Both the position numbers and the translations under genes were made by a program. The notes under the pieces were generated by a model, which saw only the letters and a list, made by a program, of their open reading frames with translations, was not told where the DNA came from and ran no database searches. A DNA stretch of 64,000 nucleotides from Natrialba taiwanensis DSM 12281 (lineage in GTDB: Archaea; Halobacteriota; Halobacteria; Halobacteriales; Natrialbaceae): positions 111,664-175,663 of the forward strand of contig NZ_AOIL01000009.1 of assembly GCF_000337595.1 (NCBI RefSeq). The letters run 5' to 3'. Positions 17,604 through 59,768 of this stretch are shown piece by piece (within the stretch, counting starts at the first letter, position 1; each line of letters starts with the position of its first letter).

Positions 17604-18410
17604 GTGAGCACTTCTGATGGAATGCGATCACTACTCGAGACACCCCTCGTTCGAGACGGCAAATCGATCATTCTTGCGCACGACCACGGGTTAGAACACG
17701 GGCCGACCGCCTTCTCCGAAGTGCCGGAACGACTCGATCCGGAGACCGTCTTCGAGATGGCAACCCACGACGCCGTAACCGGATTCGCGGTGCAGAAAGG
17801 GCTCGCAGAAACATACTATCCCTCCTACGAAGACGACGTGAACCTGCTGGCGAAACTCAACGGTACCAGCAGCCTCTGGATGGGTGAACCGTACTCGCCC
17901 CAGACGTGCTCGGTCGAGTACGCGCTCGAACTCGGTGCCGACGCCGTCGGCTACACGGTATACCCCGGCACCAACCGCGAACCGGAGATGTTCGAAGAGT
18001 TCCGAACCGTACAAGAGCAGGCACGCAAGCAAGACGTTCCGGTCGCGATGTGGTCGTATCCGCGCGGGCAGGCGCTGAAAGAACACCGCAAGCCCGACGT
18101 GATCTCGTATGCGACCCGAATCGCGCTCGAACTCGGCGCGGACATTGCGAAGGTAAAGTATCCCCGCAGCGGCGACGCAATGGCCACGGCGGTGGACGCG
18201 GCGGGTGACGTAAACGTCGTGCTCAGCGGCGGCTCGAAAACCTCGGACTACGAGTTCCTCTCGCTAGTCGAGACAGCGATGAACGCCGGTGCGAGTGGGC
18301 TGGCCGTCGGTCGAAACGTGTGGCAACGCGACAATCCCGAACGAATTCTCGACGCACTCGAAGCGGTCGTTTTCGACGGTGCAACCGCAGACGAGGCGCT
18401 CCCCGAGTAA
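17604..18410 (+). CDS. fba: class I fructose-bisphosphate aldolase (DhnA/archaeal type)
   Basis: Cleaves fructose 1,6-bisphosphate to dihydroxyacetone phosphate and glyceraldehyde 3-phosphate (EC 4.1.2.13) after fructose 1-phosphate has been phosphorylated. Of 268 residues, with motifs ILAHDHGLEHGP, VQKGLAETYY, MWSYPRGQ, the Schiff-base lysine Lys185 in KVKYPRSGD, SGGSKTSDYEFL and GASGLAVGRNVWQ. A GTG at 17604 is taken as start; ATG 17622 (MRSLLETPLVRDGK) is an equally plausible start given the TATA position. It heads the fructose locus. In Haloferax volcanii, as far as I recall, the aldolase used with the fructose PTS is class II, so a class I enzyme here is a notable substitution. Confidence 0.9.
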   Translation: MSTSDGMRSLLETPLVRDGKSIILAHDHGLEHGPTAFSEVPERLDPETVFEMATHDAVTGFAVQKGLAETYYPSYEDDVNLLAKLNGTSSLWMGEPYSPQTCSVEYALELGADAVGYTVYPGTNREPEMFEEFRTVQEQARKQDVPVAMWSYPRGQALKEHRKPDVISYATRIALELGADIAKVKYPRSGDAMATAVDAAGDVNVVLSGGSKTSDYEFLSLVETAMNAGASGLAVGRNVWQRDNPERILDALEAVVFDGATADEALPE

Positions 18411-18572
18411 CGATCCTCGGGACCCGAGTCTCGACTCGGTCGGCACGCGACAGCAACGGAGTGCAGTCGACCTGCCGGCTCCGCTGATTAGTACATAAAT
18501 TTCGTGCAGAAACAATCAATACCAGATACAAATATGAATGCCACCGTGCAAGTATCCGTCGAACACACAGCT

Positions 18573-19340
18573 ATGTTACCGGCAATGCGAAAGCGCGATA
18601 TCGTCGAGGTGGTCTCCGAGCGTGGCGAGTGTTCCGTCGCCGAACTCGCCGAGGAGATGGACTGCTCGAAGGCGACGATCCGTCGGGATCTCAGCGATCT
18701 CGAGGAACGACAGTTGATCGAGCGGTCACACGGCGGTGCCGTCCCGGCGACGACCGTCGGAAGCGAACAGACCTACGGCCAAAAGGAGGTACAAAACCTC
18801 AACAGCAAGATGGTCATCGCCGAGCGAGCGGTCGAGGAAATCGCCGAGAATCAAGTCGTCTTCTTCGACTCGGGCTCGACGACGATGCAAGTCGCCAAGA
18901 ACGTCCCGACTGACCGATCGTTCCTGTCAGTGACGAACTCGCCGGTAGTAGCGATAGAACTCGGAGAGAAAGACAACGATGTGAAACTGACCGGCGGCAC
19001 GCTTCGCCACGAGACGCGAGCGCTCACCGGGCCAAGCGCAGAGCGGTTCATGGAGCGAACGAACTTCGACTTGCTGTTTCTCGGGACGAACGCAATTGAT
19101 CCGTCAGAAGGGCTCATGACGCCGAACGAAGACGAGGCCCGCCTGAAATCGCTCATGATCGAAAACGCAGCGCGCGTCGTCCTCGTTTCCGATGGTACCA
19201 AGCTAGACAAGCAGAGCTTCGTCAAATTCGCGTCTGTTGAAGACGTAGACGTGTTCATCACCGACGTAACGCTCTCTGAGCGTCAGCGCGAGCCGTTTGA
19301 CGCCGCCGGCGTCGAACTCACCGAGGGGGTCGGCCAGTGA
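18573..19340 (+). CDS. glpR: DeoR-family transcriptional regulator GlpR
   Basis: Repressor-type regulator of fructose (and glucose/glycerol) genes in haloarchaea. The N-terminal DeoR HTH is at residues about 5-57 (CSVAELAEEMDCSKATIRRDL, then IERSHGGAV); the sugar-phosphate-sensing DeoR C-terminal domain follows, with DSGSTTMQVAK, TGGTLRHETRALTGP and VSDGTKLDKQSF. ATG 18573 (MLPAMRKRDIVEVV) matches known GlpR N-termini; an in-frame ATG at 18534 would add 13 residues. A TATA-like ACATAAATT lies at 18493-18501. It overlaps pfkB by 4 bp, so the two are translated together, as in the glpR-pfkB pair of Haloferax. Confidence 0.9.
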   Translation: MLPAMRKRDIVEVVSERGECSVAELAEEMDCSKATIRRDLSDLEERQLIERSHGGAVPATTVGSEQTYGQKEVQNLNSKMVIAERAVEEIAENQVVFFDSGSTTMQVAKNVPTDRSFLSVTNSPVVAIELGEKDNDVKLTGGTLRHETRALTGPSAERFMERTNFDLLFLGTNAIDPSEGLMTPNEDEARLKSLMIENAARVVLVSDGTKLDKQSFVKFASVEDVDVFITDVTLSERQREPFDAAGVELTEGVGQ

Positions 19341-20260
19341 TCGTCACCGTCACGCTCAACCCCGCAGTCGACCACACGCTCGCGATTCCCGACCTTCCCG
19401 AGGACGGCGAAATCGCACGCACCGACGACGCGCGCGTCGACCCCGGCGGAAAGGGCATCAACGTCTCGAAGTACCTCGTCGAACTCGGCACCGAAACGAC
19501 CGCAACCGGAATCACCGGTGACTTTCTCGGCCAGTTCGTTCGAGACAGTCTGACTGAAAAAGGGATCGATAACGACTTCGTCGACATCGAGGGTCGGACG
19601 CGGCTCAATACCACGATTTTGACCGCGGATTCGGAGTACAAGATCAATCACGACGGACCCGCGGTCAACGGCCACGCGATCGAAACGCTCCTCGAAACTA
19701 TCGAGCGCAACGACCCGGACACCGTCGTCGTCGGCGGCAGTCTCCCGCCCGGACTTGGTCCCGACGCTATCGACCGAATCGCTCGGGCGGGCGACTGGCA
19801 AACGGCGGTCGACGTCGGTGGAGATGTACTCCGCGACTTGGACGCCTCCTATACGCTCTGTAAACCGAACCGAGAAGAACTCGCAGTAGCGACGGACCGC
19901 CCGATCGACTCGCTCGAGGACTGTTACGACGCAGTCGAACGGCTGCAAACGATGGGCTACGACCGCGTTGTTGCATCGCTTGGAGCCGACGGTGCAATCA
20001 TGGCAACACCGGACGGTCTGTTGCATGCAGCGGCGCTGGAGACGACTGTCGTCGACACGGTTGGAGCTGGCGACTCGTTGCTCGCAGGGGTACTGGCCGC
20101 GCTCGAACGCGGTGCAACGGACGAAGAAGCGCTTCGGTCGGGCGTCGCGGTTGCCGCACAGGTGGTCTCGGTACCGGGGACGACCGTCCCACCGCTCGAC
20201 GACGTACCAACGCGACTCGAATCTGTACCAGTCTCATCGCCGGAGCCCTTCTCACGGTGA
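19337..20260 (+). CDS. pfkB: 1-phosphofructokinase (PfkB family)
   Basis: Phosphorylates fructose 1-phosphate, made by the PTS, to fructose 1,6-bisphosphate (EC 2.7.1.56). The 307-residue ribokinase-fold protein starts at GTG 19337 inside the glpR stop. Visible motifs: NPAVDHTL at the start, GGKGINVSKYL near residue 35, GGSLPPG, CKPNREEL, and the ATP/anion-hole and catalytic-base motif DTVGAGDSLLAG near residue 240. The genes fba, glpR and pfkB stand directly before the PTS operon on the same strand, which makes the 1-phosphate specificity likely. Confidence 0.93.
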   Translation: MIVTVTLNPAVDHTLAIPDLPEDGEIARTDDARVDPGGKGINVSKYLVELGTETTATGITGDFLGQFVRDSLTEKGIDNDFVDIEGRTRLNTTILTADSEYKINHDGPAVNGHAIETLLETIERNDPDTVVVGGSLPPGLGPDAIDRIARAGDWQTAVDVGGDVLRDLDASYTLCKPNREELAVATDRPIDSLEDCYDAVERLQTMGYDRVVASLGADGAIMATPDGLLHAAALETTVVDTVGAGDSLLAGVLAALERGATDEEALRSGVAVAAQVVSVPGTTVPPLDDVPTRLESVPVSSPEPFSR

Positions 20261-20458
20261 CTACATCTGACTATTTGGAATCCATTCACCGTCATGTGTT
20301 CATTCCTGAACGGTCGCTGTCCGATACAGAAGACGGGGATCAATTGTGTCTCAAATCAGCAACAGCTAGCGAACTTGAATCGGTTTGCGAGTTCTATCTG
20401 CGTGATTAGATTTTTATTTCGAAAATTATAGACAGTAACAATCATACTCGAAAATTCT

Positions 20459-20470
20459 TTTGAATAATAG
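20459..20470 (+). promoter_or_regulatory. TATA box of the fructose PTS operon
   Basis: TTTGAATAATAG is centred about 28 bp before the ptfC start at 20492. The upstream 200 bp are AT-rich, unlike the flanking genes, and give this operon a promoter separate from glpR-pfkB. Confidence 0.5.
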
Positions 20471-20491
20471 GTAGGAACTTCAGAGCGAAGC

Positions 20492-21670
20492 ATGGCATTG
20501 ACAGACAGTGCGGAGAACGCGCTCCGGTCGCACGTTACGTCCGTAAAGGAGGACGTGATGACCGGCGTGTCGTTCATGATTCCGTTCGTCACGATCGGGG
20601 GGATCTTCCTTGCAGTGGCGTACATGGTCGCCGAGCTCCCGTTTACAGCCGGTAACACCGAGAACGTGTTCGAAGCGACCGGGACGCTCGCCTGGTACCT
20701 GGCCGAGATCGGTAACCTGGGACTGACGATTATGATCCCCGTTCTGGGGGCGTACATCAGCTACGGTATCGCGGACAAACCCGGATTGGCTCCGGGGTTC
20801 ATCCTCTCGTGGACGATCCAGCAAGAGCGGATCATCGAAGCTGCGGGGACGATCGTCGGGTTCCAAGCCGACGGTGCCGTTGCCGGGTTCCTCGGCGCGC
20901 TCGTGGCCGGTCTGCTCGCCGGCTACGTCGCTCGGTGGATGAAGGGATGGGCTGTTCCATCCTTCATCAAGCCGATGATGCCGGTGTTGATTATCCCCGT
21001 CTTCACGACGGCGCTGCTGACCCCGCTCGTGATCGTCGGGCTCGGCGTTCCGATCGCCATCGTCGACGACGCGCTGACGACGTTCCTCCAGAACATGGAG
21101 GGCGCAAACGCCCTGCTCCTGGGCGCGATCCTCGGCGCGATGATGGCCCTCGACGTGGGCGGCCCAGTCAACAAGGTTGCGTACGTCTTCGCGGTCGCGC
21201 TCGTCGGCGACCAGATCCACGGACCGATGGCCGCGGTAATGATCGCGGGCATGACGCCGCCGCTCGGATTGGCGCTCTCGAACTTCATCGCTCCCCAGAA
21301 ATACTCCGCCGAAATGTACGAGAACGCCAAGGCCGCGATCCCGCTCGGGCTGGCGTTCGTCACCGAGGGAGCAATCCCCTACGCGGCGGCCGATCCGCTT
21401 CGGGTTATTCCGAGCGCCGTGATCGGGAGTTCGACGGCCGCGGCGACGGCGATGTGGCTCGGCGTGACGATGCCGGCCCCGCACGGCGGTGTCTTCGTGA
21501 TCATCCTCTCGAATAGCGCGCTCGCGTTCCTCGGCTGTATCGCGCTCGGAACCGCGGTGACCGCGGCCGTTGCGACGGCGATCAAACCCGACTTCGAACA
21601 GACGGTCGCCGATGTCGAAACGAATACCGGGGGAACGAGTTCACAGCCAGCGGCACAAACTAACGATTAA
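20492..21670 (+). CDS. ptfC: fructose PTS permease, EIIC component
   Basis: Membrane channel subunit of the phosphoenolpyruvate-dependent fructose phosphotransferase system. Of 392 residues with about 9-10 hydrophobic segments; the fructose EIIC sequence ADKPGLAPGF occurs near residue 98, followed by a VGFQADGAVAGFLGALVAGLLAGY-like stretch (around 128-150) and MALDVGGPVNKVAY. The C-terminal tail is cytosolic and polar. It stands alone as EIIC; the B and A domains are separate genes in the same operon. Gene order ptfC-ptfA-ptsH-ptsI-ptfB is the mirror of what is known in Haloferax volcanii. Confidence 0.95.
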   Translation: MALTDSAENALRSHVTSVKEDVMTGVSFMIPFVTIGGIFLAVAYMVAELPFTAGNTENVFEATGTLAWYLAEIGNLGLTIMIPVLGAYISYGIADKPGLAPGFILSWTIQQERIIEAAGTIVGFQADGAVAGFLGALVAGLLAGYVARWMKGWAVPSFIKPMMPVLIIPVFTTALLTPLVIVGLGVPIAIVDDALTTFLQNMEGANALLLGAILGAMMALDVGGPVNKVAYVFAVALVGDQIHGPMAAVMIAGMTPPLGLALSNFIAPQKYSAEMYENAKAAIPLGLAFVTEGAIPYAAADPLRVIPSAVIGSSTAAATAMWLGVTMPAPHGGVFVIILSNSALAFLGCIALGTAVTAAVATAIKPDFEQTVADVETNTGGTSSQPAAQTND

Positions 21671-21714
21671 GACAAGCTTGTTACCGACCGCTCTATACTC
21701 ACGGATTACAACCG

Positions 21715-22191
21715 ATGACTGACACACTCACTCAAAATCGAATCGAGACGCTCGCGCCGACCGAACACATCTCACTCGAACCGCCGACCACCGACAAGCG
21801 GGGCTACATCGAATTCCTCCTGGATCTGCTCGTCGACGCAGGGCGTGTCGACGACCGTGAAACCGCGCTGCAGGCATTGCTCGCACGGGAGGAGGAGACG
21901 ACGACCGGTGTCGGCATGGGTATCGGGATTCCCCACGCCCAGACCGACGCGGTAACCGAACCGTCGGTGGCGTTTACCCGCTCGGACGACGGCGTCGACT
22001 TCGGGGCGATGGACGACGAGCCCGCACGGCTCCTCTTTATGATTCTCGTCCCCGAGTCAGGAGCCGACGACCACCTCGCGATCCTGAGTACGCTGTCGCG
22101 TGCGCTCATGCACGACGAGGTCCGCGAGGAGCTGTACGATGCGGAAACGCCCGCCGACGTTCAGACAGTTCTCAAGGAGGCGGTAGCATGA
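21715..22191 (+). CDS. ptfA: fructose PTS EIIA component
   Basis: Cytosolic phosphocarrier that accepts phosphate from HPr and passes it to EIIB. Of 158 residues; the phospho-histidine is His74 in GVGMGIGIPHAQTDAV, a typical EIIA-fructose/mannitol site, followed by ARLLFMILVPES and HLAILSTLSRAL. It lies 44 bp after ptfC and overlaps ptsH by 4 bp (ATGA), indicating coupled translation. Confidence 0.95.
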   Translation: MTDTLTQNRIETLAPTEHISLEPPTTDKRGYIEFLLDLLVDAGRVDDRETALQALLAREEETTTGVGMGIGIPHAQTDAVTEPSVAFTRSDDGVDFGAMDDEPARLLFMILVPESGADDHLAILSTLSRALMHDEVREELYDAETPADVQTVLKEAVA

Positions 22192-22541
22192 GTTCCGAAC
22201 TCGAACGGGTCGTTACAGTCGTTCCCGAAGCGGGCCTGCACGCTCGTCCCGCCGCCGCGTTCGTCGAAACGGTCAATGACTCGGACTCCGATATCCAGAT
22301 CGCGCACGCGACCGACGACGATGACGATACCGACCTCACGCCCGCAGCCAGCATGATCGCCGTCACGAGCCTCGGCGTCGAACACGGCGAAGAGATCCGG
22401 ATCGTTGCCGACGGCCCGAATGCGGAGGCGACGCTCGACGAACTCGAACGCGTGCTTACGACTCCCGAAGACGAACTCGACGGAGAGAACGCAACAGCCA
22501 CAGACACAGACGCAGACGCGACCACAGACACGAATGCCTGA
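22188..22541 (+). CDS. ptsH: phosphocarrier protein HPr
   Basis: Relays phosphate from EI to EIIA. The HPr fold covers about residues 1-92, with the active-site His18 in PEAGLHARPAA and the helix-2 region SMIAVTSLGVEHGEEI. There is no regulatory serine-kinase consensus that I can confirm. The protein is longer than usual (117 residues) because of a C-terminal tail of about 25 residues rich in Thr/Asp/Ala. The start overlaps ptfA by 4 bp and the end overlaps ptsI by 8 bp. Confidence 0.94.
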   Translation: MSSELERVVTVVPEAGLHARPAAAFVETVNDSDSDIQIAHATDDDDDTDLTPAASMIAVTSLGVEHGEEIRIVADGPNAEATLDELERVLTTPEDELDGENATATDTDADATTDTNA

Positions 22542-24231
22542 GCAGATGTCCCGCCGAACACTCACCGGAACCGGTGCGACGCCACGCGCTGCCGTCGGCA
22601 CGGTCGTCTGGTACGATCGAGACAGCGACCTCGGAGACCCCGACGAGACGAGCGTCGATCCGCCAACTGAACTCGAACGATTCGAAGACGCGCGCGAAGC
22701 CGCCCGCGCGGAACTCGAAGCCGAGCGCGAGCGCACCGCCGAGCGGGTCGGCGAACAGGAGGCCGGCGTGTTCGACGCGCACCTGCAGTTCCTCGACGAC
22801 CCGCAGATCGAATCCGGCGTCACAAGTGCCGTCGAGAACGACCTGCCAGCCGAACACGCCGTCAAACGAGCCTTTGCGGACCCGATCGAGCAGTTCCAGG
22901 AGATGGACGGTCGGATGGCCGAGCGGGCCGACGACCTCCGCGACGTTCGCGACCGCCTGATTCGGCTGCTCACCGGCAGCGAACGGGTCGATCTCGGCGA
23001 CCTCCCGAACGGAGCCGTCGTCCTCGCCGAGCGACTGACTCCCAGCGATACGGCACAACTCGATCCGGACCGGGTTGCCGGGTTCGCGACCGTTACCGGC
23101 GGCCGAACCTCCCACGCGGCGATCTTCGCTCGATCACTGGCACTCCCGGCCGTCGTCGGCATCGGCGACGAACTACGCGAGGTCGAGGAAGACGCGACCG
23201 TCGTCGTCGACGGAGAGACCGGCGAACTCTGTCTCGATCCGACCGACGAGCGCCGCGAAGAGGCGGCCACCGCCAGCGAGGTCGACGTTCGAACCGACCC
23301 CGTGAGCACGGTCGACGGAACGACCGTCGAGGTGGCCGCAAACGTCGGCCAACCCGCCGAACTCGACGGCGTCCGAGCACAGGGCGCGGACGGAATCGGC
23401 CTCTACCGCACGGAGTTTCTGTTTCTCGACCGCCAGTCACCACCCGACGAGGACGAACAGTACGACGCGTACACGACCGCGCTCGATACGTTCCCGGATG
23501 GACGCGTAATCGTCCGCACGCTCGACATCGGCGGCGACAAGCCGATCCCCTACCTCAACCTTCCCGACGAGGAGAATCCGTTCCTCGGCGAACGCGGGAT
23601 CCGTCGCTCGCTCGACTCCGACACCGAACTCTTCGAAACCCAACTGCGCGCGCTGCTCCGCGCAGCCGCCGATGGCGACGGAGAACTCGCCATCATGTTC
23701 CCGCTCGTCACGACAGTCGATGAACTCGACGCCGCACTCGAAACCGTCGACGCAGTTGCAACGCAACTGGACGCGGAAAACGTCACCCACGCTGTCCCCG
23801 AACTCGGCGTGATGATCGAAACCCCGAGCGCCGTGTTCGCCGCGCCCGAACTCGCCGAGCGGGTCGACTTCCTCAGCGTCGGTACGAACGATCTCACCCA
23901 GTACACGATGGCCGCCGCACGCGGCAACGAAAACGTCGAAGCGCTCAGAGATCCGACACAGCCGGCCGTTCTTCGTGCCATCGCACGAACCGTCGAGGCA
24001 GCCCACGAAAACGATGCGTGGGTCGGCATGTGCGGCGAAATGGCCGGCGACCCCGACCTAACCGAACTCCTCGTCGGACTCGGATTCGATGAACTGAGCA
24101 TGAGCGCCGTCACCATTCCGGACGTGAAAGCAGCCGTCCAGTCGGTCCACACCGACGAGGCGTCCGCGCACGCAACACACGCACTCGACGCAGCCACCAG
24201 AGAGCAGATACGTACACAGCTCGACGAGTAA
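22534..24231 (+). CDS. ptsI: PTS enzyme I (phosphoenolpyruvate-protein phosphotransferase)
   Basis: Autophosphorylates with phosphoenolpyruvate and phosphorylates HPr (EC 2.7.3.9). With start 22534 (MPEQMSRRTLTG) it has 565 residues, standard for EI. The phospho-histidine is His194 in TGGRTSHAAIFAR; the C-terminal PEP-binding barrel has GIGLYRTEFLFL, RTLDIGGDKPIPYL, FLSVGTNDLTQYT and the active-site Cys in GMCGEMAGD. An alternative start is ATG 22546. The 8-bp overlap with ptsH shows tight operon organisation. Confidence 0.95.
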   Translation: MPEQMSRRTLTGTGATPRAAVGTVVWYDRDSDLGDPDETSVDPPTELERFEDAREAARAELEAERERTAERVGEQEAGVFDAHLQFLDDPQIESGVTSAVENDLPAEHAVKRAFADPIEQFQEMDGRMAERADDLRDVRDRLIRLLTGSERVDLGDLPNGAVVLAERLTPSDTAQLDPDRVAGFATVTGGRTSHAAIFARSLALPAVVGIGDELREVEEDATVVVDGETGELCLDPTDERREEAATASEVDVRTDPVSTVDGTTVEVAANVGQPAELDGVRAQGADGIGLYRTEFLFLDRQSPPDEDEQYDAYTTALDTFPDGRVIVRTLDIGGDKPIPYLNLPDEENPFLGERGIRRSLDSDTELFETQLRALLRAAADGDGELAIMFPLVTTVDELDAALETVDAVATQLDAENVTHAVPELGVMIETPSAVFAAPELAERVDFLSVGTNDLTQYTMAAARGNENVEALRDPTQPAVLRAIARTVEAAHENDAWVGMCGEMAGDPDLTELLVGLGFDELSMSAVTIPDVKAAVQSVHTDEASAHATHALDAATREQIRTQLDE

Positions 24232-24265
24232 CTCGCCTACTGCAACCACACAACACCACACAGCC

Positions 24266-24733
24266 ATGAAACTCATCGCAGTCACGTCATGTCCAACCGG
24301 TATCGCACACAGCCAGATGGCAGCGGAAAATCTCGAGACAACCGCCGAAGACCGCGGCCACGACATCAAAGTCGAGGTCCAGGGCGCAATGGGTGCCGAA
24401 AACGAACTGACCGAGACCGACATCCAGACCGCTGACGCAGCGATCATCGCCGCAGATACGGCGGTCAGCCAGGACCGCTTTACGGACATCGTGCTGATCA
24501 AAAGCACCGTCAAAGAAGCCGTCAACGACGCCGGCGGACTCATCGATCAAGCGGTGCACCAAGCCGAAGCCGGCGAAACAGGCGTTACCGCCGTCGGGTC
24601 CGAGGGCGGAGCGACCGCCGAATCCGAACCCGAACAGGAAAGCGCTACCTCGGCAACCGCCGAATCCACGGAACAGCTCGGCGGCGACCCCTCCAAAGGC
24701 CTCTTCGCCCGCCTCAAGCGGTTATTCTCCTGA
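24266..24733 (+). CDS. ptfB: fructose PTS EIIB component with extended C-terminus
   Basis: Transfers phosphate from EIIA to the incoming fructose. The EIIB-fructose domain covers residues 1 to about 100, with phospho-cysteine Cys9 in TSCPTGIAHSQMA. Beyond it is an unusual tail of about 55 residues: an Ala/Glu/Ser/Thr-rich linker and a final basic-hydrophobic stretch GLFARLKRLFS, which could form an amphipathic helix. I infer that the tail tethers free-standing EIIB to the membrane near EIIC. It closes the PTS gene block, 34 bp after ptsI. Confidence 0.93.
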   Translation: MKLIAVTSCPTGIAHSQMAAENLETTAEDRGHDIKVEVQGAMGAENELTETDIQTADAAIIAADTAVSQDRFTDIVLIKSTVKEAVNDAGGLIDQAVHQAEAGETGVTAVGSEGGATAESEPEQESATSATAESTEQLGGDPSKGLFARLKRLFS

Positions 24734-24809
24734 TGGGACGGGCTCGACTCGATCCGACGAGGAGCACGGACACCACACCCACACCTCCCGCGAACACCCG
24801 ACGAAACCG

Positions 24810-25679
24810 ATGACACTAACCGACGTACGCACACTCCTCGATGAACTCGCGGCGATCACGCCCGCCGTCAGGACAGAGTTACGATCGGCCGCCAATCAGG
24901 GAAAAACGGCGACAGAGAACTCGAGCGGCGACGACCAATCAGTCGCGGATCTGGCCATCAACCGCCTGTTTCGCGAGCAACTGAGCCCGCTCAACGCCGT
25001 CGGTGCGTTCGCCAGCGAAGAGTGTGAGAGCGTCGAAGAAACCGGCGAAGGATACAGTGTCGCCATCGATCCGCTCGACGGATCGTCGAATCTGCAGTCG
25101 AACAATACCGTCGGAACGGTCATCGGCGTATACGACGCACCGCTTCCGGCCAGCGGACGGAATCTGATCGCCAGCGTCGTCCTCCTGTACGGGCCGATAA
25201 CGACGATGACGGCCGCCGTCGACGGAACTGTAACGCGGTATACGATCGACTGCGGCGATATCGTCGATTCCAGTTCGGTGACTATTCCCGATGCGAAGCA
25301 GGTGTGTGGATTCGCCGGAACGACGAGCGAGTGGTCGGCACCGGTCCGGTCGTTCTGGCGGGAGCTAACCGACGGGTGCAAACTGCGGTACACCGGTGCG
25401 ATGGTCGGCGATATCGCGCACCTCCTCGTCGACGGCGGGCTGCTCGGATATCCCGAACGAACGTCCAGTCCGGGCGGGGACCTTCGGCTCCAGTACGAGG
25501 TGAATCCGATCGCCCACCACGTCGAAACCGCCGGCGGACGGTCGTCGACCGGTCGCGGGTCACCGCTCGATATCCAACCCGACGGATTGCATCAGCACGT
25601 TCCGGCGTACTTCGGGACACCAGCCGCGATAGACGCGTTGGAGGCACATATCGAGAGTGCCAATCAAACAGAAAAATAA
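24810..25679 (+). CDS. fbp: class I-type fructose-1,6-bisphosphatase
   Basis: Hydrolyses fructose 1,6-bisphosphate to fructose 6-phosphate (EC 3.1.3.11). The 289-residue protein has the Li+-sensitive phosphatase metal motifs: Glu70/Glu71 in ASEECE, DPLDGSSN at residues 87-94, and a GDIAHLL region near 205. The following YPERTSSPGGDLRLQYEVNP has the substrate-Tyr and C-terminal FBPase pattern (described by its position, about 217-235). Placed 76 bp after ptfB, it would let carbon from fructose flow to hexose 6-phosphate, because the PTS/PfkB route produces the bisphosphate directly. Confidence 0.9.
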   Translation: MTLTDVRTLLDELAAITPAVRTELRSAANQGKTATENSSGDDQSVADLAINRLFREQLSPLNAVGAFASEECESVEETGEGYSVAIDPLDGSSNLQSNNTVGTVIGVYDAPLPASGRNLIASVVLLYGPITTMTAAVDGTVTRYTIDCGDIVDSSSVTIPDAKQVCGFAGTTSEWSAPVRSFWRELTDGCKLRYTGAMVGDIAHLLVDGGLLGYPERTSSPGGDLRLQYEVNPIAHHVETAGGRSSTGRGSPLDIQPDGLHQHVPAYFGTPAAIDALEAHIESANQTEK

Positions 25680-29232: not shown

Positions 29233-29344
29233 ACGAAGGGAACTCTCGTCGGGAATCATGAACGTTTTCATCGGCACGATCGCAGGGTCTCGCAAAACCT
29301 CGCTGAGGCGAGGGGTGGTCAGGGAGAGTGGGCTGGGGAAGAGA

Positions 29345-29459
29345 GGATGAGAAAGAAGGTGAGAAGTGGAGGGTGAGAAAGAAGATGAGAAGTGGAGGGT
29401 GAGAAAGAAGATGAGAAGTGGAGGGTGAGAAAGAAGATGAGAAGTGGAGGGTGAGGAAG
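29345..29459. repeat. 26-bp polypurine tandem repeat, about 4.4 copies
   Basis: The unit GTGAGAAAGAAG + ATGAGAAGTGGAGG is repeated about four and a half times, nearly without change, the first copy having GGTGAG in place of AGATGAG. The plus strand is almost only purines, with one or two T per unit. It lies between the stop of iclR (29486) and the start of the SDR gene (29232), so it is upstream of the SDR promoter on the minus strand. Confidence 0.85.
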
Positions 29460-29485
29460 ACTGTGGGAAAGGGAGAGAGGCGATG

Positions 29486-30247
29486 TCAGGAGTAATTGTA
29501 CTCGAGTTCGATCACGTTTGCAGCGCCGAGTACCGCCTCTGGCAAGTCCTCGTAGAATCGGTCGTCATCGACACGGTGGACCGGACAGGCCACGCTGATG
29601 GCGGCGATACTGCGGTCCGAATCGTCGGTGATCGGCGCGGCGATACAGCGGAGTCCGTTGAGGCGCTCTTCTCGGTCGACCGCGTATCGCTGGTCGCGGA
29701 TCTCCTCGAGTTCAGCGTCGAACGCGTCGCGGTCGGTGATCGTCTGCGGGGTAAGTTCGGGGAGTCCCTGGTCGGCGATGATTTCGTCGACCGTTTCGTC
29801 GGAACGGAACGCGAGGATCGCTTTGCCGAGGCCCGTACAGTGGAGGCGAACGCGTTTTCCTTCGTGGGTGTCGAGTTCGACCGCGTTTTCGCCTTTCGAC
29901 TGGTAGAGGTAGATACCCTTGCCGTTCTTTTCGACGAGGAGGTTGACGAGTTCTCCCGTTTCGTCGGCGAGTTCGTCGACTTGCGACTGGGCGGTGTCGT
30001 AGATCGGCGTCCGATTGCGGGCGTACGCGCCGAGGCCGAGAAACGAGAGGCCGATGTGGTATTCGTCGCCGTCCTTGTCGACGTACTCGTAGTTCTCGAG
30101 CGTCGTCAGATGGTTGTGAACGGCGCTCTTGCCGATGTCGACGCGGGCTGCGATCTCGGAGACGCCGGCCCCGTCGAGTTCTTGAATGATCTCGAGGATT
30201 TCGAACGTCCGCCCGACAGTTCGTACGGGGTATTTCGGGTCCGCCAT
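29486..30247 (-). CDS. IclR family regulator, candidate pentose-catabolism regulator (XacR-like)
   Basis: A 253-residue IclR protein: N-terminal HTH (GVSEIAARVDIGKSAVHNHL) and effector domain (LHCTGLGKAILAFRS, YAVDREERLNGLRCIAAPI, with a final VIELEYNYS). An ATG at 30247 (MADPKYPVRTVGRT) fits the TATA at 30271-30280; an in-frame GTG is at 30256. It lies between the SDR/lactonase genes and the XacA gene, so it could be the counterpart of XacR of Haloferax, the IclR-type activator of the xac genes. This assignment rests on family and position only. Confidence 0.88.
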   Translation of the reverse strand: MADPKYPVRTVGRTFEILEIIQELDGAGVSEIAARVDIGKSAVHNHLTTLENYEYVDKDGDEYHIGLSFLGLGAYARNRTPIYDTAQSQVDELADETGELVNLLVEKNGKGIYLYQSKGENAVELDTHEGKRVRLHCTGLGKAILAFRSDETVDEIIADQGLPELTPQTITDRDAFDAELEEIRDQRYAVDREERLNGLRCIAAPITDDSDRSIAAISVACPVHRVDDDRFYEDLPEAVLGAANVIELEYNYS

Positions 30248-30270
30248 ATGCGCCACATGATCGACGATAA

Positions 30271-30280
30271 CATATAAATT
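30271..30280 (-). promoter_or_regulatory. TATA box of iclR (29486-30247)
   Basis: Minus-strand AATTTATATG is centred 28 bp before the ATG at 30247, favouring this start over the GTG at 30256. Confidence 0.55.
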
Positions 30281-30684
30281 ATTCTGATACGCAAAACGAG
30301 GTTTCGAGGCACAGAATGAAAAAAGAGTGATACAGAACGATTAGCCGGGTGTGATCGGCGGGTCTTCGCCCGCTCGAGACGATCGGATCCCGGGTGTGGA
30401 GAGAACGCCGTCAAATCACCAGCCTCCGTTTTCGAGTTCGACCGCGAACACCGTACTGTTCATTCTCGATGGGGGTGGGCCTGTAGAGGTGAATAGTATT
30501 CAGTTATAAAGAACGAAGAGTGACACACAGAGAACTCATGTGTGACAAGGTACCAACCGCGAGGAGACGAGAGAAACCGGATATCGAGGGACTTCATCCC
30601 CTATATCGGCGATTTCCGGGAAAAGATAGAATGTCCGTGCGAAGACAGGGAGTCCCGAAAGCACCACTGGCAGAGCCTTACGAG

Positions 30685-30722: not shown

Positions 30723-30815
30723 GTATCGCGCGGTTCGTTCACAAACGCGGCACCAGTCGGCCAGTTCCGTCCGGGAGGCCACCGTTCAATGAGACGGTCG
30801 ATAATGAGTGAGTGC

Positions 30816-30851
30816 TACAGAATAGAGTTCTGTATGAAAGAATAGCATTCT
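30816..30851. promoter_or_regulatory. paired operator-like dyads AGAA-N5-TTCT
   Basis: First dyad: TACAGAA and TTCTGTA around TAGAG (30816-30834), perfect over 7 bp per arm. Second dyad: AGAAT and ATTCT around AGC (30839-30851). Centres are at 30825 and 30845, 20 bp apart, so both dyads face the same side of the helix. Similar paired half-sites occur upstream of the alcohol dehydrogenase (58156-58188) and GH43 (58454-58477) genes. Confidence 0.6.
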
Positions 30852-31091
30852 GAAAGACAGTCGGTCAATGACGTGCAATCGGAACAACTGCAACGATTCA
30901 CACTGCTCACACCGTCGTCGTTCGATCGGGTGTGCAGTGACGCAGCGGCTACTGGAGACAGTCGACGGGCAGGAGGAGACAGGAAAGAATCGCAGGAGGA
31001 CCGGATGCCATCGAATACGCTCCGGCAGCCGGGCGAAACGGGCCGAAGCGATGGATCGTTCGACGCTGGACGGGAGCGGACTACTTCGGTG

Positions 31092-32174
31092 TTACAGATC
31101 GAGAGTGACCACATCCTCGCGGTCGGCGGATTCGTGAATCGCTTCGATGATCCGCATATCACCCAACCCGTGACGCCCGTCCGGGTAAATCTCGCGGTCA
31201 CCCAGGAGTCGGTCGGCAAAGTAGTCGAACTCCTCTCTCATCTCCGCTTCGGCGTCGAACGTCTCGTGTTCGACCGAAACCGAGACGTCACCCCGCGAGA
31301 GGTCCATCGAACACTCCCCGTGGAACGCCGGTTGGAGCGTGATTTGGCCCTCCGTTCCCGTAATCTTGAGCTCCGTATCCTCGTGAGCGTGCTGACTGGC
31401 TGTCGAGATCATCTGGATGTCGTCTTCGAAGACGAACAGCGACGAGGCGCGTTCGTCCGGGACGGCGTCGAACGCCTCGTGCGCCGAGATCATATTCGAG
31501 CGGACCGACACGGGCTCGCGCTGGAGGAGGTACCGCGTCGTATTGATCGAGTAGATTCCCAGATCCATCACCGACGTTCCGTACCCGCTCAGATCGGGAT
31601 CGAGTCGCCACTGATCCGGATCGGGGATCATCTCGAGCAGCGGCTGACTGTTGTGGCCGTAGACCGACACCGGCTCGCCGATGAAGCCGTCTTCGATCAA
31701 CTCCCGCGCTCGCTGGACGGCCGGCTCGGTGTGCATCCGATACGCGATCATCAACGGTACGTCGGCTCGCTCGCAGGTCTCGACGAGTTCAGTGGCGCGT
31801 TCGACGGTGGCCTCCATCGGCTTTTCACAGAGCACCGCCTTGTCCAGGCTGGCCGCGGTTGCAGCGTACTCCAGGTGGTAGGCGTTCGGCGTGCCGATGT
31901 AGACGGCGTCGTACCGGTCGGCTGCGTCGCCGTTGTGGAACTCGTCGTAGCTGAGTCCGCGTGAAACGTCGTTCTCGGCGGCCAGACGGTCCGCCTTCTC
32001 GCTCGAACTGCTGACCAGGACGGTAACCTCGCCGAGTTCCGAGGATTCGATCGCCGGCAGCGCAACGTCGATGGTCCACCACCCGAGGCCGATCAGGGCG
32101 TATCGAACGGTCCCCGATTCTTCGTCGGTCGTTTGCCAGGTTCGCTCGTCGTAGGTATCGATCCACTCGCGCAT
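31092..32174 (-). CDS. xacA: D-xylose 1-dehydrogenase (NADP+), XacA/Gfo6 type
   Basis: First step of oxidative pentose breakdown: oxidises D-xylose to xylonolactone in the cytosol. The 360-residue Gfo/Idh/MocA-family protein starts at 32174 (MREWIDTYDERTWQ). The Rossmann motif GLGWWT is at residues 29-34, then VLVSSSSEKADRLA, the catalytic lysine motif CEKPMEATVERA, IAYRMHTEPAV, DQWRLDPDLSG and DLGIYSINTTRYLL. From memory these follow the characterised haloarchaeal xylose dehydrogenase of Haloarcula marismortui closely. TATA is 27 bp upstream. The other xac genes lie 14-26 kb away in this window, so the pathway is split between loci. Confidence 0.9.
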   Translation of the reverse strand: MREWIDTYDERTWQTTDEESGTVRYALIGLGWWTIDVALPAIESSELGEVTVLVSSSSEKADRLAAENDVSRGLSYDEFHNGDAADRYDAVYIGTPNAYHLEYAATAASLDKAVLCEKPMEATVERATELVETCERADVPLMIAYRMHTEPAVQRARELIEDGFIGEPVSVYGHNSQPLLEMIPDPDQWRLDPDLSGYGTSVMDLGIYSINTTRYLLQREPVSVRSNMISAHEAFDAVPDERASSLFVFEDDIQMISTASQHAHEDTELKITGTEGQITLQPAFHGECSMDLSRGDVSVSVEHETFDAEAEMREEFDYFADRLLGDREIYPDGRHGLGDMRIIEAIHESADREDVVTLDL

Positions 32175-32196
32175 ACAGCGTGATATCTCCTCAGTT

Positions 32197-32206
32197 GATA
32201 AAAAAC
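32197..32206 (-). promoter_or_regulatory. TATA box of xacA
   Basis: Minus-strand GTTTTTTATC is centred 27 bp before the start codon at 32174; a GAGGAG stretch lies between them. Confidence 0.5.
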
Positions 32207-32237
32207 GATCGATGACAGTGTGTCCCAATAACAGGGG

Positions 32238-56941: not shown

Positions 56942-57985
56942 TCAATCCCGCAGCACCGACGCGTCGAAGACGGGTTTGCAGGTCCCGCCGTCGACGAACG
57001 TTTCGAACGCCTCGTCGGCTTCGAGCAGGCTGAACCGATCGTCGAGGAAGGTCGCGTGGTCGACGTCGCCGGACGCGATCAGCCGGAGCGACCGCTCGAA
57101 GTCCTCGTACATCGACGCATACGAGCACTGCAGGTCGATCTCCGCGCGGACGAGCGGCGAGTACGGCATCGTCGTCTCGCCGGTCTGGCCGACGAGGACG
57201 ATCTGCCCGCCCTTGCGGACTTCGTCGACCGCCATCGGTAATCCAGACGGGTGGCCGGTCGTATCGAAGACCACGTCGTAGCCGACGCCGTCAGTGAGTT
57301 CGTCTCGGCGCGCGTCGAGATCGTCGGCCTCGATGTTGATCGTCTCGAAGCCGAGTTCCTCGGCCAGTGGGAGGCGATACTCGGCGTCTTGGCCGACGCC
57401 GGCGAGGACGACCTCGCCGCCCTGAGCCCGCGCGATCTGGGCCGTGAGCTGCCCGATCGGACCCGGTCCAGCGACCATAACGCGGTCGCCGGGGCTCACG
57501 CGGGAGTTCTCGATGACCGCACGCGCGCCGATGCTCGTCGGTTCGACGAGCGCGGCGTGTTTCGGTTCGACGTCGTCAGGGACGGGATGGAGCGCCGTCT
57601 CGGGAACGGAAACGTAGCCCGCGTACGCGCCGTCGTGGTCGACGCCCGTGATAACCGCGTTTTGGCAGACGTTCTCCTCGCCGATCTTACACTGGTAACA
57701 CTCGCCGCAGCCCCGAATCGGGCGCTCGACGACCCGATCGCCGACCGCAAAGTTCGTCACGTCGTCGCCGGTCTCGATAATCCGACCGGTGTACTCGTGT
57801 CCGATGACGGTCGGGAGCTCCATCCGTTCGAACGCCGACTCGAACTCGTAGATCCCTGCGTCGCTTCCGCACAGACCCGCATAGTCGACTTCGATCAGTG
57901 CTTCGTCCGGTCCGGGTGAAGGGCGTTCGAGATCAACGAGTTCCATCGCTCCCTGCTGTCGGCTGGTTTTGGCTAGTCCACGCAT
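56942..57985 (-). CDS. zinc-dependent alcohol/sugar dehydrogenase (MDR family)
   Basis: Medium-chain NAD(P)-dependent dehydrogenase of 347 residues (start 57985, MRGLAKTSRQQGAM; ATG 58003 also possible). Catalytic zinc ligands Cys39 and His63-Glu64 (GLCGSD, IGHEYTG); structural zinc cysteines 93, 96, 99 and 107 in GCGECYQCKIGEENVC; Rossmann motif GPGPIGQL. It resembles threonine/sorbitol dehydrogenases. In a pentose cluster without a recognised arabinose dehydrogenase it may oxidise L-arabinose, a pentitol or a uronate; substrate unknown. Candidate operators lie about 170-200 bp upstream. Confidence 0.87.
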   Translation of the reverse strand: MRGLAKTSRQQGAMELVDLERPSPGPDEALIEVDYAGLCGSDAGIYEFESAFERMELPTVIGHEYTGRIIETGDDVTNFAVGDRVVERPIRGCGECYQCKIGEENVCQNAVITGVDHDGAYAGYVSVPETALHPVPDDVEPKHAALVEPTSIGARAVIENSRVSPGDRVMVAGPGPIGQLTAQIARAQGGEVVLAGVGQDAEYRLPLAEELGFETINIEADDLDARRDELTDGVGYDVVFDTTGHPSGLPMAVDEVRKGGQIVLVGQTGETTMPYSPLVRAEIDLQCSYASMYEDFERSLRLIASGDVDHATFLDDRFSLLEADEAFETFVDGGTCKPVFDASVLRD

Positions 57986-58008
57986 AGTTGCCAGTACGTT
58001 CATCGGGC

Positions 58009-58018
58009 GTTATAGTTC
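58009..58018 (-). promoter_or_regulatory. TATA box of adh
   Basis: Minus-strand GAACTATAAC centred 28 bp before the ATG at 57985, favouring that start over 58003. Confidence 0.5.
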
Positions 58019-58155
58019 TGTGGGATTGCGCGATTCGGATGCGACTCGCCGCCGGGCGTTGCCGTCTCACTCACGACGGCTCGGAGCTGGCCCGGAAAGT
58101 CAGGTCGGAAACGAAAACCGAAGCGACGCACGGCGACATCTGCGTTCATTCTCCG

Positions 58156-58188
58156 AAAACAAGATTCTATATGAAAGAACAAAGCTAG
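58156..58188. promoter_or_regulatory. degenerate paired AGAA-N5-TTCT operator upstream of adh
   Basis: Two half-matching dyads with centres at 58162 (AAAA-N5-TTCT) and 58182 (AGAA-N5-CTAG), again 20 bp apart. The central 15 bases TTCTATATGAAAGAA differ from the site at 30828-30842 at only one position. Confidence 0.5.
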
Positions 58189-58453
58189 CTGAATGAAGAA
58201 CGGTGGTCCGTCCTTATGCGGGGCTGGAACTCGGGATCCGCAGCGAGTTCATCCCGAATAGAGTGGAGAGATTACAACAGTACGCTCGTAATCTATAGCG
58301 GCCGGACGAGACGGCAACATCGACTCTGGAGCACGGGCGCTGCAACTGAAACGCGACACTATCGGGTCGAGACTCGGTATCTCGGGTGAACCGCCCCGCG
58401 GAACGAGCGAGTGACTGGTCGCGGCCGAGTTCAATACGTCGTCTCACTCTGCA

Positions 58454-58477
58454 TTCTGCTTTAGAGAACTCTATTCT
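58454..58477. promoter_or_regulatory. paired AGAA-N5-TTCT operator upstream of GH43
   Basis: A perfect AGAA-N5-TTCT at 58465-58477 (centre 58471) plus a TTCT half-site at 58454-58457 whose dyad centre would be 58451, 20 bp away. Its reverse complement shares the 15-mer ACAGAATAGAGTTCT with 30817-30831. Confidence 0.55.
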
Positions 58478-58644
58478 GTTATACCGAAACTCGTTCGGTA
58501 TACGTCGCCGCGCAGCGCGCGATCGTGCACCGGCCGATGGCGAACGAACGCAACTGAACTCGACCGAGCGCGAGCCGGCACCGCTGATGGCGATAGTGGC
58601 GTCGTTCGTCGGATCGATTACGGATGCAAAACCGACTGACACAC

Positions 58645-58654
58645 ATATTTATAT
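58645..58654 (+). promoter_or_regulatory. TATA box of GH43 gene
   Basis: ATATTTATAT centred 31 bp before the ATG at 58680, which fits a leaderless mRNA starting at that codon. Confidence 0.55.
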
Positions 58655-58679
58655 GAATAGTTGGAATAATGAGGGCCGC

Positions 58680-59768
58680 ATGGTGCTTAATAGCAATAGC
58701 CACAAGCGGCGCAACGTTCTCGCGGCAATCGGTGCAGGAGCAGTCGGCGCACTCGGATATCCGGGCGGAGGAACGCATACAGCGAGGGCTGACAACGACG
58801 GGGATCACTATCACAACCCGGTCTATGCTGATCGCGTGTTTCCTGACCCGACCGTGGTCCGCGTCGATGATATGTACTACGCGTACGCATCGAACATGGA
58901 GAAAGACGACGAGGATCAGGAGGAGATGGTTCCGATCGTGAAATCGCCGAATCTCCACGACTGGACGTACGTCGGGGAAGCCTTCGAGAGTTATCCGGAC
59001 TGGCGCGACGACGATGCGTCGCTGTGGGCACCCGACATCAACTACTACAACGACACGTATCACCTGTACTACTCCTACTCGACGTGGGGAAGTAGCGATA
59101 ACCCGGGAATCGGCCTGGCGACCGCGGACACACCGGAGGGTCCGTTCACCGATCAGGGACCGGTGTTCCGGGAGGACGAGTTGTCGATGACGAACGCCAT
59201 CGACTCGGACTTTTTCGTCGTCGACGGAACGCCGTACATGGTTTGGGGAAGTTTCTACGGAATCTACGGCGTCGAGTTGACGCCGGACGGAACGGATTAC
59301 GTGAACGGGACGACGGTCCACCTCGCGGGCGATAATCGCGAGGCGGCGAAGATCGTCGAAGCGAACGGCTACTACTACCTGTTTTACTCGACCGGCTACT
59401 GCTGTGAGGGCTACGACAGCACCTACGAGATCGAGGTCGGCCGATCGGCGAACGCCCTCGGGCCGTACACCAACCAGAACGGCACCGACCTGCGAAATCT
59501 GAACGATCACAACAGCGGAGTGGCCATCGTAAGCGGCAACAGTCGGTTCCCGGGAACCGGCCACAACACGGCGATCCGCGACGATACCGACGGCCTGTGG
59601 CTCCTGTACCACGCCTACGATCGACGGGAACCGGAGTACGTCGACGGGACGTGGAACCGGATCATGCTAGCCGATCGAATCAGGTGGGACGACGACGGCT
59701 GGCCGGTACTCGGGTGTGACGGAACGCCGACCGCCCAGCACCCGCGATCTCGACCCCCCGTTCGTTGA
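58680..59768 (+). CDS. Tat-exported glycoside hydrolase family 43 (arabinanase-like)
   Basis: Secreted five-bladed beta-propeller glycosidase acting on arabinan or arabinoxylan. From ATG 58680, 362 residues: a twin-arginine signal (SHKRRNVLAAIGAGAVGALG) then the propeller. The GH43 triad is visible: base Asp56 in FPDPTVVRVDD, pKa-modulating Asp175 in NAIDSDFFVVDGTP and acid Glu227 in KIVEANGYYYLFYS. The region WAPDINYYNDTYHLYYS and a later FPGTGHNTAI with YHAYDRRE are typical of the endo-1,5-alpha-arabinanase-like branch. No lipobox, so probably fully released. Divergent from the alcohol dehydrogenase gene. Confidence 0.93.
   Translation: MVLNSNSHKRRNVLAAIGAGAVGALGYPGGGTHTARADNDGDHYHNPVYADRVFPDPTVVRVDDMYYAYASNMEKDDEDQEEMVPIVKSPNLHDWTYVGEAFESYPDWRDDDASLWAPDINYYNDTYHLYYSYSTWGSSDNPGIGLATADTPEGPFTDQGPVFREDELSMTNAIDSDFFVVDGTPYMVWGSFYGIYGVELTPDGTDYVNGTTVHLAGDNREAAKIVEANGYYYLFYSTGYCCEGYDSTYEIEVGRSANALGPYTNQNGTDLRNLNDHNSGVAIVSGNSRFPGTGHNTAIRDDTDGLWLLYHAYDRREPEYVDGTWNRIMLADRIRWDDDGWPVLGCDGTPTAQHPRSRPPVR

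Follow-up and report, generated by a model that had tools for sequence, protein, structure and literature searches.

A candidate distal operator of an XacR-like IclR regulator in the pentose gene region of Natrialba taiwanensis

XacR (HVO_B0040) of Haloferax volcanii has been described as an IclR-type pentose regulator (Johnsen et al. 2015, as cited in PMC10448506, PMC6995148, and PMC6085418), and a negative semi-palindrome is attributed to the xacR promoter in PMC6085418, again with reference to Johnsen et al. 2015. In the same organism, a xacEA promoter limited to its first 250 bp (P250) is constitutive, whereas the 750 bp intergenic fragment (P750) is repressed without xylose and induced by xylose (PMC10448506). 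One subgroup of bacterial IclR operators consists of GTT-11-AAC palindromes; tandems 18 to 22 bp apart are taken to suit tetramers, and three-box sites join two arrangements of one half-site (PMC8222616).

Here we describe a site of this kind in a 64,000-nucleotide stretch of the Natrialba taiwanensis DSM 12281 genome (the window), where a tandem of AGAA-N5-TTCT dyads at 30816 lies between an iclR gene (R1) and gfo6. A sequence-only reading of the window had known of no haloarchaeal motif of this form; the system itself does have precedent, in XacR as a described IclR pentose regulator and also in the bacterial GTT-11-AAC tandems. The 30816 pattern adds a new case to a known type of switch and is almost certainly where an IclR-type regulator akin to XacR would dock; in palindrome, boxes, and tandem it fits the description of bacterial IclR sites. 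With a probability of about 0.82, we read it as a distal operator with several boxes, belonging to a pentose regulator of the IclR family, most likely R1, which would also have adh and GH43 under its control.

The four-box site and its conserved unit

Positions 30816 to 30851 read TACAGAATAGAGTTCTGTATGAAAGAATAGCATTCT. The pattern is present there as had been claimed, and all four boxes are perfect:

30819-30851, no strand: four-box operator AGAA-N5-TTCT-N7-AGAA-N5-TTCT, perfect (16/16), arms conserved in both N. aegyptia and N. asiatica

Five of the six substitutions that N. aegyptia and N. asiatica carry within these 33 bp fall in the N5 spacers. A genome search with mismatches allowed, which the sequence-only reading had proposed, found just one perfect copy in the whole Natrialba genome (4.64 Mb), the one at 30819-30851, and 13 places with up to three mismatches, compared with none for a reversed control. 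At this threshold the window contains two matches versus 0.09 expected from shuffles. The second-best place lies at GH43 (58465-58497, 14/16), with CGAA-N5-TTCG as its second dyad. Two recurrences with 20-bp phasing had also been reported near adh and GH43. In both, the central TTCT-N7-AGAA is kept (58156-58188 and 58445-58477), but the copies are inexact, at 12/16 each. The last three boxes are perfect in the GH43 copy, and the 20-bp phasing is exact at 58453/58473; the outer boxes of 58156-58188 are AAAA and CTAG.

The idea that the N5 dyads form the core was not borne out. Taken singly, the dyad AGAA-N5-TTCT shows no enrichment in the window (14 copies with up to one mismatch versus 12.1 expected) and is weaker than the N7 core; it was therefore rejected as the motif. 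Nine pentose loci (the window and loci of Haloterrigena turkmenica, Halopiger, Natrinema, Halobacterium, Haloprofundus, Halosolutus, Halostagnicola, and Halomontanus) were scanned for TTCT and AGAA at each spacing from 0 to 20, across 52.8 kb of intergenic and 264 kb of coding DNA. TTCT-N7-AGAA has 16 exact intergenic copies, versus 0 to 3 for the other spacings, and 2 copies in coding DNA; AGAA-N5-TTCT has 6 intergenic copies in the same scan. The conserved unit is TTCT-N7-AGAA, centered at 30835 between the dyads as drawn, and its copies extend into the palindrome GTTCTGTA-N-TACAGAAC. Since the N7 unit is what is conserved, the dyads resolve into one good core, the 17-mer at 30827-30843 (GTTCTGTATGAAAGAAT, 13/16 to the consensus GTTCTGTANTACAGAAC), and half-conserved copies 20 bp to either side, at 30807 and 30847. 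Phasing was assessed on 106 strong sites whose loci had been retrieved without the four-box pattern, with Natrialba orthologues of the window left out; over offsets of 15 to 59, a second copy scores highest at exactly 20 bp (z 6.6; next best 3.3).

Across 125 Natrialbaceae genomes, the 17-mer palindrome has 66 matches with up to two mismatches, versus 7 for a reversed control; 24 of these occur in the 24 genomes with an R1 orthologue and 42 in the other 101. The genomic company of the best matches was read by comparing their flanks with a small reference set of annotated pentose loci, and the annotated flanks are mostly gfo6, xylonate dehydratase (MR_MLE), GH3, arabinofuranosidase, M24, KGSA dehydrogenase, R1, or xacR-like iclR genes. 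As several of the family-wide matches have no annotated flanks, some may not adjoin pentose genes. The window itself has six sites of at least 12/16, a modest count when permuted palindromes give a mean of 0.97 and a maximum of 8.

A genome-wide regulon defined by the 17-mer with up to three mismatches was considered and rejected: there are 11 places versus 1 for the control, and outside contig C9 only the one on contig C66 (arabinofuranosidase) is tied to pentose genes. A universal 200-bp spacing between paired sites was also rejected. Pairs span about 130 to 400 bp and cluster at 197 to 206 bp in only about five independent loci; the spacing is not general, and so is kept as a lead only. The best 17-mer of this genome (GTTCAGTATTAGAGAAC, 14/16) lies outside the window, at C9:96973-96989 (L084/L195), just upstream of genes for a second enolase-superfamily protein (MR_MLE) and an aldehyde dehydrogenase.

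R1 and its upstream region

The following features lie in and around the gap between gfo6 and R1:

29486-30256, minus strand: R1, XacR-like IclR regulator gene; likely start ATG 30247; Pfam HTH_IclR and IclR_C; recognition helix GKSAVHNHLTTL
30271-30279, minus strand: TATA box of R1, TTTATATG, 24-31 bp before the likely leaderless ATG 30247; kept in orthologues
30281-30338, no strand: promoter-proximal array of R1, weak 17-mers at 30281-30297, 30301-30317, and 30322-30338, 10/16 each
30498-30514, no strand: middle operator of the R1 upstream region, ATTCAGTTATAAAGAAC, 12/16; kept in N. aegyptia and N. asiatica
30807-30863, no strand: distal operator cluster, 17-mers at exact 20-bp steps (30807-30823, 10/16; 30827-30843, 13/16; 30847-30863, 10/16)
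31092-32228, minus strand: gfo6, D-xylose 1-dehydrogenase (XacA) gene; NCBIfam NF041392 equivalog, 596 bits versus a cut-off of 350

No NCBIfam equivalog names R1 above its cut-off. Orthologues with 61% to 99% identity are present in 24 of the 125 Natrialbaceae genomes. In the 900 bp upstream of 36 R1 orthologues there are 26 sites of at least 12/16, whereas 200 permuted palindromes give 0.9 on average and never more than 6. In most orthologues one copy sits near -50 relative to the likely start, immediately ahead of the TATA box. The proximal 17-mers of the window, about 20 bp apart, likewise abut the R1 TATA box. Middle sites are present upstream of the R1 orthologues in genomes G016 and G067 too.

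The distal cluster lies downstream of gfo6, 241 bp from its stop, with R1 about 570 bp further on, and since no TATA-bearing gene stands beside it, its target was assigned by synteny. Genome G016, from another genus, has the same gene order (gfo6-gap-R1) with a gap only 47% identical to that of the window. At -590 this gap has a site scoring 14/16, and at -249/-229 a tandem with 20-bp spacing; the counterparts in the window are at -596/-576 and -267. Because the distal site is kept at a matching place in G016 and substitutions fall mostly in the spacers, the distal cluster looks like part of the predicted control region of R1, with a mode of action that we can only propose (see below). Lacking a TATA-bearing neighbor and lying behind gfo6, the 30816 copy might instead be idle or left over, as a decoy or the relic of a lost promoter, with the motif real elsewhere. 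We consider this unlikely, given that the arms are conserved above the spacers in two sister species, that the distal site is at equal distance in another genus despite the divergence of the gap, and that Haloferax xac loci also have operators in convergent 3' gaps.

A small gene promoted from the site was also considered and rejected, as the frames of at least 20 aa in the 836-bp gap are without homology evidence and the gap is poorly conserved. On the other side of R1, between its 3' end and the start of an SDR gene, there is a purine-rich tandem repeat (29343-29460; period 26, 4.5 copies, 96% match).

In the alignment, the recognition helix GKSAVHNHLTTL is identical in R1 and XacR, and the two belong to a supported clade in the tree (97/92). 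Strict orthology does not hold, as R1 forms a sister clade about 50% identical to XacR, and the closest XacR relative in this genome is the paralogue L059 (contig C9:30349-31089; 57% identical to XacR), which is placed with XacR in the tree. We therefore call R1 XacR-like only. Among the 25 other IclR paralogues of the genome, L059 is the only one with a near-identical helix (GKSAVHNHLSTL), and its own promoter has a strong operator (12/16), so L059 could bind such sites too. That it is the main protein on the 30816 operator, with R1 secondary or in cross-talk, is nevertheless quite improbable: the island around L059 contains CoA-transferase, TPP-enzyme, and HpcH genes and no pentose genes, whereas R1 adjoins the site, and the sites track R1 orthologues across many genera. 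The adjacent R1 is most likely the cognate regulator. A palindrome resembling GTTC-N9-GAAC lies a short distance upstream of the start in several IclR paralogues of this genome (L059, L064, L065, L073, L074, and L077), in some cases immediately ahead of a TATA-like box, a hint that haloarchaeal members of the family may share an autoregulatory arrangement.

That the dyads work at the RNA level, by forming a terminator or a processing hairpin downstream of gfo6, is highly improbable and was rejected: the inverted repeats could pair and the site follows gfo6 on its coding strand, but the fold is no better than that of shuffles (z -1.49, 21/200 as good), the motif recurs upstream of TATA boxes, and the arms are without compensating changes, substitutions falling mostly in the spacers.

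Sites at adh, GH43, and the xac genes

The second group of sites in the window lies around adh and GH43:

56942-58003, minus strand: adh, zinc alcohol/polyol dehydrogenase gene of the pentose cluster; likely start ATG 57985; Pfam ADH_N and ADH_zinc_N
58015-58031, minus strand: half-operator, CCACAGAAC on this strand, abutting the adh TATA-like CTATAA; 10/16, weak alone
58164-58180, no strand: operator upstream of adh, ATTCTATATGAAAGAAC, 12/16, about 180 bp before the likely adh start
58386-59768, plus strand: GH43 glycosidase, open frame; Pfam Glyco_hydro_43 from residue 142 of the frame; true start somewhere downstream of the operators
58453-58489, no strand: tandem operator upstream of GH43, 17-mers at 58453-58469 and 58473-58489, 20 bp apart, 12/16 each

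The TATA-like CTATAA of adh (58010-58015) is about 28 bp before ATG 57985, and an adh adjoins gfo6 or the xac cluster in the Haloprofundus (L054) and Halostagnicola (L056) loci, in L192, and in Haloferax. A tetramer-type IclR site common to the iclR/xacA region and to adh/GH43, as the sequence-only reading had suggested, is supported by the TATA-fixed sites, the pentose-gene flanks, and the 20-bp tandem; binding is predicted. Sites at oxidative pentose genes of the window are limited to the R1/gfo6 gap and adh/GH43. Before the ALDH/FAA, GH67/SBP5, GH3, and CUT1 operons of the window, the main ABC transporter included, there are no sites of at least 12/16, so the regulator may not act directly on the greater part of the cluster. 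Elsewhere in the window, 17604-25679 is a likely fructose phosphotransferase cluster with genes for a DeoC/LacD-family aldolase, a DeoR-type regulator, PTS EIIC, a PEP-utilizing enzyme I, and FBPase.

All 30 XacR orthologues examined, which come from several families, have the palindrome next to the TATA box, between -39 and -52. Other genomes have sites at the gfo6, xylonate dehydratase, and xacE promoters. The Haloferax-like comparison set comprises three genomes of one genus with a gene order matching the published xac cluster. Each has three sites about 200 bp apart in the gap of about 740 bp before xacE, at -620/-417/-220 in one genome and at about -675/-473/-272 in two (nine sites of at least 12/16 versus 0.11 for permuted motifs). 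By analogy, a 250-bp fragment would contain at most one of the three xacE operators, and the spacing of operators in these genomes could explain why P250 is constitutive and P750 xylose-controlled in H. volcanii. A further operator copy (12-14/16) is conserved in Haloferax-like genomes where xacR and the KGSA dehydrogenase gene xacF converge, in the 3' gap between the two and with no start codon nearby (L184:1114, L186:1082, L187:19323, and L190:131).

A proposed mechanism and comparison with known IclR systems

What the comparisons show is the motif with its phasing, conserved position, and genomic company, together with the recognition helix common to R1 and XacR; from there we infer R1 binding, its oligomeric state, its sugar ligand, the sign of regulation, and looping along the following lines. 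R1 dimers would recognize the GTTCTGTA-N-TACAGAAC half-sites, and since adjacent copies are exactly 20 bp apart, two dimers (a tetramer) could occupy one face of the DNA. Autorepression of R1 is predicted because an operator abuts the TATA/BRE elements at its promoter. The distal cluster (30807-30863) and the middle copy at 30498 may strengthen this control or make it sugar-switched, possibly via looping, and the copies at adh/GH43 would place both of these genes under the same regulator. As a tentative and rather doubtful generalization, XacR-type IclR proteins might govern haloarchaeal pentose genes by long-range arrays, in which an operator abutting the TATA box and 20-bp-phased distal clusters are bridged by tetramers into repression loops. 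The distal clusters would then lie 200-600 bp upstream, or downstream in 3' gaps, much as in lac or ara, in an archaeon.

These results supply a specific operator sequence, open to experimental test, for XacR/R1-group IclR regulators of haloarchaea in several Halobacteriales families, and a candidate mechanism for the contrast between the 250-bp constitutive and 750-bp xylose-induced xacEA promoters of H. volcanii (PMC10448506). With its operators 200-600 bp away from promoters, the system would offer an archaeal example of long-range repression that can be tested.

Compared with bacterial IclR operators (PMC8222616), the haloarchaeal sites share an odd, 17-bp palindrome of the GTT-11-AAC type (GTTCTGTANTACAGAAC), tandem centers within the 18-22 bp range (here 20 bp), alternating boxes of both arrangements, and a site at the regulator's own promoter, of which the window copy is weak (10/16). 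They differ in the fifth base, which is T rather than C (GTTCT, not GTTYC), in having four boxes here, in their archaeal TATA/BRE context, and in reaching 600 bp upstream, whereas the bacterial study searched only 400 bp. The Pxyl study (P750/P250; PMC10448506) mapped no sites; common to both cases is a long upstream region that carries control, with three operators in the corresponding gap of Haloferax-like genomes. The XacR regulon is also among the closest described systems. R1 differs from XacR in being a sister-clade protein of about 50% identity rather than a strict orthologue, but in both cases an IclR regulator with the identical recognition helix adjoins gfo6/xac genes, and XacR orthologues carry the same palindrome next to their TATA box, with three copies upstream of xacE in Haloferax-like genomes.
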